Below, in pieces: positions 37,143 through 41,699 of a DNA stretch of 41,699 nt; within the stretch, counting starts at the first letter, position 1; each line of letters opens with the position of its first letter. The DNA is from a virus: positions 1 through 41,699 of IMG/VR virus record IMGVR_UViG_3300030107_004242; one strand, given 5' to 3'. The notes beneath the pieces are model-generated. The model saw nothing but the letters and a program-made list of their open reading frames with translations. It did not search any database and was not told where the DNA came from. The position numbers and the translations under genes are program-made.

Positions 37143-37574
37143 ATGACTATACCCAAGGGGCTAAGCCCAAAGCAGAGCGCATTCGCAGGATTCGTGGCGT
37201 CTGGCCTGACCCAGACGGAAGCGTACCGAAAGGCGTACGATACGAAGGGCAAGGACTCGACCGTCCACGTTCTCGCGTCTCGCCTAATGAAGAAGGATCA
37301 TGTGCGCCAAGCTGTCGAAGATCTCAAGGCCGACAAGAAGCAAGCCAAGCGCACCCACGAAAAGCTCAACGCCAAATGGGTTCTTGAGCGCCTCAAGTCT
37401 GAGGCCATGGACGATAGCAATCCACCATCCACACGGGTACGGGCACTTGAGCTACTAGGAAAGAGCGAAGGAGTATTCGATGAGTCTTCTACTGTGGTAG
37501 TAGAACACAGGAACCCAGAGGACATTCAGAAGGAGCTACAGGACAAGCTGTCAGGGTTTTTCTCAGAGGCGTGA
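37143..37574 (+). CDS. terS: Terminase small subunit
   Basis: 143 residues. The N-terminal helix-turn-helix (LSPKQSAFAGFVASGLTQTE, AYRKAYDTKGKDSTVHVLAS, RLMKKDHVRQAVEDL) has the 'xxxKQxxFxxxYxxGxxxTEAYRxAY' start of the Terminase_2 family. A Lys-rich linker and an acidic helical C-terminus (NPEDIQKELQDKLSGFFSEA) follow. The small subunit recognises the packaging site and recruits the large subunit. It is unusual that about 3.2 kb and a leftward gene separate it from the large-subunit gene. The iteron array starts 156 bases after its stop. Confidence 0.85.
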   Translation: MTIPKGLSPKQSAFAGFVASGLTQTEAYRKAYDTKGKDSTVHVLASRLMKKDHVRQAVEDLKADKKQAKRTHEKLNAKWVLERLKSEAMDDSNPPSTRVRALELLGKSEGVFDESSTVVVEHRNPEDIQKELQDKLSGFFSEA

Positions 37575-39251: not shown

Positions 39252-39359
39252 GTGAAAAAAATTACAACAAAAAAAATAAAAGTCTTAGCCTTGTTTGGCG
39301 CTATTGGAATTTTTGCAGCTAGTTATTATCTAACTAGTAATTATCTAGATAGAAAATAA
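39252..39359 (+). CDS. Possible short membrane protein
   Basis: 35 residues from GTG 39252: MKKITTKKIKVLALFGAIGI, then FAASYYLTSNYLDRK. A basic N-terminus and one hydrophobic helix make a plausible signal-anchor peptide. However, there is no ribosome site, and its second half is made from the TATCTA-rich repeat region, so it could be accidental. Confidence 0.3.
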   Translation: MKKITTKKIKVLALFGAIGIFAASYYLTSNYLDRK

Positions 39360-39452
39360 CTAGCTAGGTAATATCTAGGGTATTATCTATTTTCTTTTTT
39401 AGATAATATCTAGTTAATACTAGACATTATCTATTAACTATATATTATCTAT
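39321..39452. repeat. AT-rich TATCTA array
   Basis: Seven direct TATCTA motifs at 39327, 39342, 39372, 39384, 39407, 39428 and 39446, plus inverted TAGATA at about 39345 and 39400. TATTATCTA and TAGATAATA (39381-39408) form a 9-base inverted repeat. CTAGTTA/TAACTAG motifs are interspersed. The stretch has almost no G or C and ends at a run of eight G. It resembles a DNA-unwinding or multi-operator region upstream of the 39470 gene. Confidence 0.75.
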
Positions 39453-39469
39453 AGGGGGGGGTTGCCAAA

Positions 39470-39691: not shown

Positions 39692-39941
39692 TTACCGTCA
39701 TGTAGTCCTGTTTGCAGTGCTTTTTGTGATGTCTAGCTGTGCTGTTGTGAACTCGGGGTGTTGGTCTGGGCTGAACAACGTATATTGCCAAGACTCAGAA
39801 AACCTGAATGAGGAACGGCGGTGGAATATCCCCCCAGCACCCCCCTCTGGATTGAATGCGACATGTGTGAAGAGTGGTGGTGCAGCTTCCACGACAGCCA
39901 TGTCTTTGACTGCGCCTGCCCTGAAATTGAAGACTTTATAG
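39669..39941 (+). CDS. Probable small lipoprotein overlapping the next gene
   Basis: 90 residues, with AGAGG six bases before the ATG. A hydrophobic signal sequence (HVVLFAVLFVMSSC) ends in a lipobox-like MSSC (Cys24). The mature part would be short and contains CWSGLNNVYCQDS and a proline-rich segment (WNIPPAPPSGLN). Short proline-rich lipoproteins encoded in an overlapping frame recall outer-membrane spanin subunits (Rz1), but the usual Rz partner is not the overlapping gene here. The last 121 bases overlap the next gene in another frame. Confidence 0.5.
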   Translation: MKAWFWGNYRHVVLFAVLFVMSSCAVVNSGCWSGLNNVYCQDSENLNEERRWNIPPAPPSGLNATCVKSGGAASTTAMSLTAPALKLKTL

Positions 39942-40024
39942 AACTTGGCGTAGAGCCATACTCTACTCCCAAGTCTGACCCTAAGGTTTTGTTGGCGATA
40001 GCAAAAAAATCGGGGACGAGATAG
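39821..40024 (+). CDS. Small Cys/Trp/His-rich protein
   Basis: 67 residues from GTG 39821 (AGGA six bases upstream). The core WIECDMCEEWWCSFHDSHVF and then DCACPEIEDF has five Cys and two His, suggesting one or two bound zinc ions. I recognise the 'ECDMCEEW.CS.HD.HV..C.CP' pattern from many environmental phages; its role is unknown. The last 13 bases overlap the tmRNA-like RNA. Confidence 0.7.
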   Translation: MEYPPSTPLWIECDMCEEWWCSFHDSHVFDCACPEIEDFIELGVEPYSTPKSDPKVLLAIAKKSGTR

Positions 40025-40086
40025 GTTTCGACACCTCATAAACGTTGAGCTTGGGGTGGACGCCAGTTCGAGTCTGGCCGTCTCCA
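40012..40086 (+). ncRNA. tmRNA-like tRNA domain without an mRNA-like region
   Basis: 75 nt that fold as the tRNA-like domain of tmRNA. The acceptor stem is GGGGACG (40012-40018) with CGTCTCC (40079-40085), with a G-U at the third pair, and discriminator A at 40086. AGGTTTCGACA (40023-40033) matches the tmRNA D-loop signature. A T-arm GCCAG-TTCGAGT-CTGGC (40062-40078) is canonical. CACCTC (40032-40037) with GGGGTG (40053-40058) could form helix P2. In bacterial tmRNA, P2 leads to pseudoknots and the tag reading frame of some 300 nt; here only 15 nt remain. There is no anticodon arm and no encoded CCA. It is either a minimal functional RNA or a relic of an ssrA attachment site. Confidence 0.72.
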
Positions 40087-40109: not shown

Positions 40110-40430
40110 ATGACGTTATCAAAAAAAGAGGAGCGGAGAGAACGGCAGTTCGGTCCCAAGGCTGACTGGATACGAACTTTGCCGTGTGCGGCCTGTGGGC
40201 GTGACGGGCCTAGCGACCCTGCACATATGAGATCGCGTGGCGCCGGGGGTACCAGTGACCATCTAGTGCCGCTTTGCAGGATGTGTCATACCGAACAACA
40301 CACGAAAGGAATTAAGACATTCTTTTCAAAACACGGTATAATTGACACATTAGATCTTGCAGAGCGGTATCATCAAAGGTGGCTCCATGCAGACTATTGG
40401 AAAAACAGAGGCAACGACCTCCTCTACTAA
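40110..40430 (+). CDS. HNH-type nuclease-like protein
   Basis: 106 residues from the ATG at 40110; an upstream GTG-type start would place the N-terminus inside the tmRNA-like RNA. Metal-binding and catalytic motifs are visible: LPCAACGRDGPSDPAHMRSR (CxxC, then DPAH), SDHLVPLCRMCHTEQHTKG (H..PLC..CH...H). This is the Cys/His layout of small phage HNH-type endonucleases. HNH enzymes next to terminase genes often assist cos cleavage. A role in packaging or recombination is possible; the substrate is unknown. Confidence 0.75.
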   Translation: MTLSKKEERRERQFGPKADWIRTLPCAACGRDGPSDPAHMRSRGAGGTSDHLVPLCRMCHTEQHTKGIKTFFSKHGIIDTLDLAERYHQRWLHADYWKNRGNDLLY

Positions 40431-40764
40431 GCCACTGCCAATAAAACTAGACGAAGTTACGTTAGTAATTGAAAAAGCAGTCGAAGCGTATCGCTCTGCC
40501 ACTGCTACCATGAGGGGCACGCGGTCAAAGGCGGCGCTTCACATGGATGACTACGCATCTTGGTCAGATGGCAAGGTTCGATATACAGGAAAGTCTGCAT
40601 CTGATATTTTAGAAGACTACTTGACGGGCTTGGGCTTTGAAAGAGAAAGCCAAATGTTCTACGACTTGAGTAGAATTGTCATGGATTACTCAGAACTTGG
40701 TGAGTTTTCTATATCAGAAGTTGTCTATTGGTGCGCTTTGAGCAATGTTGACTATGAATTATGA
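40387..40764 (+). CDS. Small protein before the terminase, unknown
   Basis: 125 residues from the ATG at 40387, preceded by AAAGGTGG; a longer form from 40357 is less likely. It overlaps the HNH gene by 44 bases. It is helical (EVTLVIEKAVEAYRSATATM; DILEDYLTGLGFERESQMFY) with an acidic C-terminal end. The gene lies ten bases from the terminase large subunit and may be an accessory packaging gene. No family is recognised. Confidence 0.6.
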   Translation: MQTIGKTEATTSSTKPLPIKLDEVTLVIEKAVEAYRSATATMRGTRSKAALHMDDYASWSDGKVRYTGKSASDILEDYLTGLGFERESQMFYDLSRIVMDYSELGEFSISEVVYWCALSNVDYEL

Positions 40765-40773
40765 GCACAAGCT

Positions 40774-41699
40774 ATGCAAATTGACATTAATTCTATAAAG
40801 TCTAAGCTAGATCAATTGCCAGATGTTGAAAAAATGGAGATTTTGCAACTCTTAGATGAGCTTGAGTCTGCAAAAACCAAGGAAACTGCCCACGAAGACT
40901 TTTTAGGATTTGTAAAACATGTGTGGCCAGCCTTTATTGAAGGTGATCACCACCGTGTAATGGCCGATGCGTTCAACAGGATTGCAAAAGGCGAGCTAAA
41001 GCGCCTGATTGTCAACATGCCACCCCGTCACACCAAGTCCGAGTTTGCTTCTCACCTCTTTCCTGCGTGGTATTTGGGCAAATACCCTGATCGTAAGGTG
41101 ATTCAGACGGCACACACTGCCGAATTGGCGGTAGGGTTTGGTAGAAAAGTTAGAAACTTGGTTGGATCGGACGATTACCAGCACATTTTTAACAATGTGT
41201 CACTAGCATCCGACTCCAAGGCCGCAGGTCGCTGGAGTACAAACAAGAATGGGGAGTATTTTGCTATTGGTGTCGGCGGTGCGGTAACAGGTAAGGGTGC
41301 CGACATCCTGATTATTGACGATCCGCACTCCGAACAGGAAGCGGCGCTTAATGATCCGTCCATTTACGACAAAACCTACGAGTGGTACACCTCTGGACCA
41401 CGGCAGAGGCTGCAACCGGGCGGTAGTATCTGCGTTGTAATGACAAGATGGTCCAAAAAAGACCTGACTGGCCAGATTTTGAAGTCATCAATCCAGCGTG
41501 GCGGCTCTGATGAGTGGGAAGTCATAGAACTTCCTGCAATTTTGCCCAGTGGAAGCCCTTTATGGCCCGGATTTTGGCCGCTAGAGCAGTTGGAGGCACT
41601 AAAATCAGAACTTCCGGTGCCGAAGTGGTCTGCACAGTACCAACAAGACCCCACATCAGAGGAAGGAGCGCTAATTAAGCGCGAATGGTGGAAAGAATG
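40774..41699 (+). CDS. terL: Terminase large subunit, N-terminal part
   Basis: The frame is open from the ATG at 40774 to the window end, giving 308 residues. The ATPase motor is recognisable: adenine/Walker A region LKRLIVNMPPRHTKSEFASH (Walker A-like MPPRHTKSE, residues 82-90), Walker B ILIIDDPH (178-185), and the coupling motif MTRW (223-226). VTGKGADILIIDDPHS is typical of this terminase family. The C-terminal RNase H-like nuclease domain must lie beyond the window. It translocates DNA into the procapsid with energy from ATP. Confidence 0.93.
   Translation, partial: MQIDINSIKSKLDQLPDVEKMEILQLLDELESAKTKETAHEDFLGFVKHVWPAFIEGDHHRVMADAFNRIAKGELKRLIVNMPPRHTKSEFASHLFPAWYLGKYPDRKVIQTAHTAELAVGFGRKVRNLVGSDDYQHIFNNVSLASDSKAAGRWSTNKNGEYFAIGVGGAVTGKGADILIIDDPHSEQEAALNDPSIYDKTYEWYTSGPRQRLQPGGSICVVMTRWSKKDLTGQILKSSIQRGGSDEWEVIELPAILPSGSPLWPGFWPLEQLEALKSELPVPKWSAQYQQDPTSEEGALIKREWWKE

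Follow-up and report, generated by a model that had tools for sequence, protein, structure and literature searches.

Transfer-messenger RNA (tmRNA) reduced to its tRNA-like domain (TLD) is already known as a kind of RNA, in phages from mycobacteriophage DS6A and in organelles from mitochondria and plastids. The DS6A RNA (Mao et al. 2009, cited in PMC4131195 and PMC11915505) is phage-encoded, keeps the standard order and consists of the TLD only, and it is the one phage example that these two papers name. Here, we describe an RNA of this kind in a DNA stretch of 41,699 nucleotides, hereafter the window, which covers positions 1 to 41,699 of the IMG/VR virus record IMGVR_UViG_3300030107_004242. 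Positions 40012-40086 of its plus strand read as a complete tmRNA TLD, predicted to be the product of a 75-nt gene. The window RNA has all three properties of the DS6A RNA, compared here by its description, but it belongs to an unrelated, marine phage.

Other relatives differ more clearly. Mitochondrial tmRNAs without an mRNA part (RF02544; jakobids and oomycetes) have also lost the tag frame and kept the TLD and the P2 helix, but they are usually permuted two-piece molecules with a nuclear SmpB partner, whereas the phage RNA is one-piece, follows the standard order and has no phage SmpB. The plastid tmRNAs of Mallomonadaceae that lack a coding sequence (CDS) are one-piece and of TLD size, about 65 bp, but they are plastid genes known from two sequences and are not viral (PMC11915505). 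Full-length and two-piece phage tmRNAs (mycobacteriophages, Melnitz; PMC9004378) are phage-borne ssrA genes with a TLD, but carry tag frames. Lastly, according to PMC3929946, crystal 2CZJ contains an engineered TLD with a UUCG-capped stem bound to SmpB, and 4ABR a tmRNA fragment with SmpB and EF-Tu on a stalled ribosome; such fragments resemble the phage RNAs in joining a TLD to a short capped P2-like stem, but they are man-made, whereas the phage RNAs occur in nature. Of 97,179 sequences in the 2025 tmRNA database, nine are entered as 'standard, no CDS' (PMC11915505), and the open-licence literature yielded no paper describing such RNAs in metagenomic phages, which is weak evidence of absence. 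What is new is the breadth of the class, its restriction to viruses, the class-wide conservation of its chargeability (G3-U70) and the existence of isolates that can serve as models.

Anatomy of the window RNA

A preliminary description, made from the letters of the window, had proposed at this place a TLD without an mRNA part. Comparison with Rfam agrees with it: in a cmscan of the whole 41.7-kb window, RF00023 (tmRNA) was the best and sole gathering-level match, with 60.6 bits against a gathering score of 47 (E=2e-21). The alignment spans model positions 1-374, of which 308 are absent, and holds an 11-nt insert; the tag reading frame and the pseudoknots are missing. Searched alone, the 75-nt RNA scores 52.1 bits, still above the cut-off, and an independent covariance model (CM; R1), built from 17 other viral copies with the window left out, gives it 63.6 bits (E about 1e-10), so that its score stands above background with both models. 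A match to the 3′ end of a host ssrA only, an outcome that the preliminary description had contemplated, is not what was found, as both halves are present. Of the two programs it had proposed, Infernal recovered the tmRNA model, whereas ARAGORN called neither a tRNA nor a tmRNA in the window and no tmRNA at 25 loci.

In sequence order, the window RNA reads GGGGACG AGATAGG TTTCGAC ... GGAC GCCAG TTCGAGT CTGGC CGTCTCC A. The 5′ strand of the acceptor stem, GGGGACG (40012-40018), pairs with the 3′ strand, CGTCTCC, at all seven positions, and the third pair is the G3-U70 that recurs across relatives. The D-loop region (40019-40032), delimited by alignment to the RF00023 consensus, has no D-stem; its loop is GAGATAGGTTTCGACA, and the region carries the tmRNA signature TTTCGAC. 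It is followed by the P2 helix CACCTCA/TGGGGTG (40032-40058), in which a loop of 13 nt replaces the tag frame and pseudoknots, as indicated by fold prediction and by P2 covariation in relatives; by a linker from P2 to the T-arm (40059-40061), which from the sequence and the alignment of copies is the remainder of the conserved GGAC; and by the perfect T-arm GCCAG-TTCGAGT-CTGGC (40062-40078). The 3′ acceptor strand and the discriminator A73 (40079-40086) close the gene, and since it ends CTCCA-TAA, CCA is not encoded. Thus the acceptor stem with its third-pair G-U, the tmRNA-type D-loop and the T-arm can all be read as first described; the possible P2 helix is now predicted with 7 bp, but its loop, given before as 15 nt, is predicted to have 13.

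The predicted fold is a cloverleaf without the D-arm, in which the RNA would resemble the upper half of tRNA-Ala, with the short P2 hairpin standing where a tmRNA has its tag frame and pseudoknots. Its minimum free energy is only mildly unusual (z -1.86), and it is covariation and conservation, not folding energy, that provide the proof of this predicted gene. Two other identities were ruled out. A permuted two-piece or mitochondrial-type tmRNA does not fit, because the 5′ acceptor strand precedes the 3′ strand and the alignment runs from 1 to 374 of the standard model, in the normal 5′-3′ order reported at the outset. A tRNA does not fit either, given the missing ARAGORN call, D-stem and anticodon loop and a P2 loop whose length is very variable among copies.

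Spread and structural selection of the class

IMG/VR viral contigs were scanned with sequence patterns that need exact conserved words; divergent copies are therefore missed and the prevalence given here is a lower bound. The first pattern, written for a TLD that has only a short gap, matched 33 loci; a broader pattern gave more than 119, and a CGGAC variant added more than 120. When read, the matches were bimodal: one kind has 5/5 T-stem pairs together with 7/7 acceptor pairs (6/7 in rare cases), and the other looks like chance or 3′-half sequence. The CM from 17 copies reproduced this division, with 54-95 bits for every complete copy, at most 31 bits for chance matches or tmRNA 3′-half loci, and 38 for the 3′ end of a Streptomyces tmRNA. 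Accordingly, loci L019 and L028 (coding) and L012 and L075 (tmRNA 3′ half only) were left out; L012, a partial tmRNA 3′ end with an unpaired 5′ half, represents a separate class. Complete TLD-only copies amount to at least 142 distinct sequences, falling into at least 89 clusters at 85% identity, at no fewer than 229 counted loci (about 220, as a few copies were fetched twice). By blastn, the 75 nt alone returned only fragments from phages.

Copies were aligned through the same CM, because their D-loops vary in length and MAFFT on all 67 slid the acceptor strand. In the model alignment, 96.3% of cells were paired, compared with 65.2% in shuffles, and 422 cells had changed on both sides, compared with 133. 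The covariation score was 0.782 against 0.178 when shuffled (0/500 shuffles reached it) and about 0.1 for slid helices, with heavy compensatory change in the acceptor stem, the T-stem and P2. Since this alignment had been fitted to the structure, pairs were also counted on unaligned anchors, and there P2 pairs 2-5 were paired in 72-86 of the 89 clusters, against shuffled means of 35-45. The window's own family tells the same story: sisters L006 and L015 match it at 71/75 and 70/75 TLD positions while nearby flanks are about 20-72% identical, and each carries a double change, from GCCAG/CTGGC to GCGAG/CTCGC at T-stem pair 3 in L006 and from A5-U68 to G5-C68 at acceptor pair 5 in L015. Compensatory stem changes, which the preliminary description had suggested looking for in relatives, thus occur in related and unrelated phages. 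On this comparative evidence, the window element is almost certainly a TLD-only tmRNA gene under purifying selection.

The marks of alanine identity are conserved to a higher degree than the rest of the acceptor stem. Among the matches listed, both G3-U70 and the discriminator A73 occur in 89/89 clusters, and G3-U70 also in 70/70 distinct aligned sequences, whereas acceptor pairs 4, 5 and 6 show 5, 6 and 5 pair types over the 89 clusters. In the first set the G-U belonged to the filter, and the unfiltered exceptions are one mis-registered duplicate and L042, which has a small deletion; in the second (CGGAC) set, not filtered for the G-U, G3-U70 is found in 74/74. A G-U is one transition away from G-C or A-U, and its constancy therefore speaks strongly for selection on recognition by alanyl-tRNA synthetase (AlaRS). 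It indicates that alanine charging would matter to these RNAs, beyond the needs of a simple SmpB sponge.

Is the class also present in cells? A stricter pattern, which requires TGGACG and so covers only part of the class, found no TLD-only copy in 84,980 bacterial and archaeal genomes; its 27 matches, read singly, were either coding sequence that matched by chance or the 3′ ends of full tmRNAs. With the broad pattern, none was found in 400 Microbacteriaceae and 395 Streptomycetaceae genomes, where the three matches were of the same two sorts; the 38-bit Streptomyces match, too, proved to be an ordinary tmRNA's 3′ end. SmpB (PF01668) was not detected in 50 + 38 carrier records, some of them fragmentary, and was detected in the ten bacteria used as control; a TLD-only RNA would therefore rely on the SmpB of its host. 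TLD-only tmRNA is thus a widespread, selected and virus-specific class that has been kept chargeable.

Carriers and gene contexts

Unannotated copies lie among the tRNA genes of the finished genomes of Streptomyces phages LuckySocke, GiJojo, pSt2308, Alone3, BRock, Shaeky and Riptide; a predicted hypothetical open reading frame (ORF) overlaps the one in GiJojo. Riptide (PV654398.1; 83298-83374 and 94862-95130) is the only one of 50 carriers with a full-length tmRNA (92.9 bits) alongside, and its TLD-only copy is degenerate, with TTCGAC changed to TTAGAT and GGAC lost but G3-U70 kept. A Ro-like RNA-binding protein is encoded just upstream of the Riptide cluster of tRNA genes and TLD. In Pontimonas phage phiPsal1, an unannotated copy separates gene 8 from the major capsid gene. 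In one group of phiPsal1-like contigs the RNA precedes the capsid gene; in another it follows an exonuclease gene whose TAG stop shares G1 of the RNA. Further copies adjoin genes for a DnaB-like helicase, terminase/portal, or tail/integrase. The RNA likewise begins with the G of an upstream gene's TAG stop at L037, L041, L059, L066, L074, L101, L013, L027, L030 and L090; the shared base suggests tight packing and co-transcription. At L030 (IMGVR_UViG_3300032282_004636, 1588-1668), the RNA is placed between a tail gene and a tyrosine integrase gene about 300 nt away, and could double as an attachment site.

In most copies the P2 loop itself contains another small hairpin (for example L018, L151 and L153), with the recurring motif (G/T)AAAGCC-GCAC-GCGGAA, common to Streptomyces phages and aquatic phages; L194, L212 and L237 are without it and have a bare capped P2.

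In the window, the RNA follows a 67-aa ORF with two Cys pairs (CDMC..CACP; 39821-40024, plus strand), whose TAG stop lies inside the TLD D-loop; this 13-nt overlap recurs in L006, L007, L010 and L015. Downstream and on the same strand are an HNH-like endonuclease gene (DUF968/HNHc_6, slightly under the cut-offs; 40113-40430) and, truncated at the end of the contig, the gene for the large terminase subunit (40775-41699), which by blastn matches terminase genes of Pelagibacter phage HTVC027P and others. The terminase and one structural protein of the window resemble those of marine podovirus-like phages (HTVC027P, HTVC023P, CRP-901/902 and DSL-LC04). Upstream of the rightward genes, AT-rich repeats of tatctaga/ctagatat-like words (39330-39460) may be a regulatory or origin region. 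A Terminase_2 small-subunit match (37143-37574) and a small ORF directly before the large terminase gene (40357-40764) may point to a second small subunit or a replaced gene.

A possible role in host ribosome rescue

What would a phage gain from a tmRNA without a message? The preliminary description had suggested that the RNA, if expressed and alanylated, could load stalled ribosomes without a tag, compete with host tmRNA or serve as a decoy. In our opinion, the best explanation overall, and a reasonably probable one, is that a working phage gene encodes a TLD-only tmRNA and that this RNA competes with host tmRNA. The RNA would be transcribed with neighbouring phage genes, cut from the phage transcript by host tRNA-processing enzymes and then given its CCA. 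Host AlaRS would charge it by virtue of G3-U70 and A73, and host SmpB and EF-Tu would bring the charged molecule into the empty A site of stalled ribosomes, where it would accept the nascent chain or block the site. Because it has neither a resume codon nor a degron, it would compete with and dampen the tagging by host tmRNA rather than perform tagging itself. In consequence, truncated phage proteins might be spared proteolysis, or the host quality-control response might be dulled during infection. The location within tRNA arrays in Streptomyces phages provides an expression context that fits this scheme. Published work lends plausibility to its later steps, with SmpB bound to a capped TLD in 2CZJ, a tmRNA fragment placed on the ribosome with SmpB and EF-Tu in 4ABR, mRNA-free polyalanine synthesis by a TLD fragment and SmpB in vitro (PMC3929946), and inhibition of E. 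coli tmRNA by a DS6A-like TLD (PMC4131195; PMC11915505) as precedents. For competition by a charged RNA in particular, our judgement is evenly divided, but we prefer it to the two readings that follow.

In the first of these, the RNA would be purely a sponge for SmpB and EF-Tu, so that host SmpB is titrated, host tmRNA is destabilised and left undelivered, and charging and ribosome entry are irrelevant. In E. coli, a DS6A-like TLD molecule strongly inhibits tmRNA, chargeable or not, perhaps by SmpB titration (PMC4131195), and the carrier records yielded no SmpB gene of their own; both facts suit a sponge. However, it does not predict an invariant G3-U70 and A73 next to acceptor pairs that are free to vary. 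Since class-wide G3-U70 exceeds what a sponge needs, this reading seems to us rather unlikely, and the charged competitor is preferred.

The second makes the same RNA a rescue tool instead of an inhibitor. Alanyl-TLD with host SmpB would accept nascent chains, and repeated rounds or an ArfA/ArfB-like factor would free the ribosomes, adding one or more alanines but no degron. More broadly, phages of many lineages would use chargeable TLD-only RNAs to take over host SmpB and EF-Tu for tagless rescue or template-free alanine tailing, protecting viral proteins from degradation; we regard this only as a tentative idea. In its favour, a TLD fragment with SmpB supports polyalanine synthesis without mRNA in vitro (PMC3929946), tagless mitochondrial tmRNAs have been kept together with SmpB (PMC11915505; PMC4131195), and G3-U70 is invariant. 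Against it, the DS6A-type molecule has been reported as an inhibitor. All in all, we consider it doubtful that tagless rescue is what these RNAs serve. It also counts against rescue that we know of no release step for peptidyl-TLD.

Two considerations weigh against competition by a charged RNA as well. First, inhibition by the DS6A-like molecule was reported not to depend on charging (PMC4131195), so the inhibitory effect does not have to act through the charged form. Second, the RNA was not found in the closest isolates of the window phage with known hosts (HTVC027P, HTVC023P, CRP-902, DSL-LC04 and others), so it is dispensable in that lineage; together with the scattered gene contexts, this absence indicates repeated gain, loss or movement.

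The remaining explanations give the RNA no part in ribosome rescue. It is improbable that the element acts as punctuation, marking with a tRNA-like shape where phage mRNAs are to be cut apart, for instance directly in front of a capsid gene: copies often sit exactly at gene borders, with the upstream TAG sharing G1 at many loci and the capsid gene downstream in a phiPsal1-like group, but cleavage by RNase P/Z would not need the tmRNA D-loop TTCGAC, P2 or G3-U70. Very unlikely is the alternative offered in the preliminary description, an integration-site relic left when part of a host ssrA was taken up as an attachment site. Integrases often use ssrA, L030 has an integrase gene close by, and L012 and similar matches do consist of the tmRNA 3′ half only. 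However, the window RNA has both halves, which are conserved jointly and show compensatory changes. The window record gave no match to a tyrosine integrase, and one was present in only 10 of the 37 carriers tested (not found in 27/37). Moreover, copies adjoin capsid, exonuclease, helicase, terminase and tRNA genes, many unrelated contexts, and the published account of phiPsal1 judged it to be lytic and reported no hint of integration (PMC6106888). For the class, the relic is refuted. An assembly or deletion artefact or chance resemblance, for which the modest folding z-score might speak, is refuted by at least about 220 loci in many metagenomes and in finished isolate genomes, and we regard it as exceedingly improbable.

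These results turn a phage curiosity with a single named case, DS6A, into a widespread virus-specific class under strong structural selection, one that is missed by ARAGORN and has gone unannotated in finished phage genomes. Judging from the sequences, TLD-only RNA is probably a selected tool with which phages disturb the rescue of stalled ribosomes by the host or turn it to their own use. Streptomyces phages such as Shaeky, LuckySocke and BRock, whose hosts are tractable in the laboratory, open a long-standing question to experiment, namely what use phages have for tmRNA genes and how a message-less tmRNA acts, and the class as a whole suggests that ribosome rescue is a target in the conflict between phages and their hosts.
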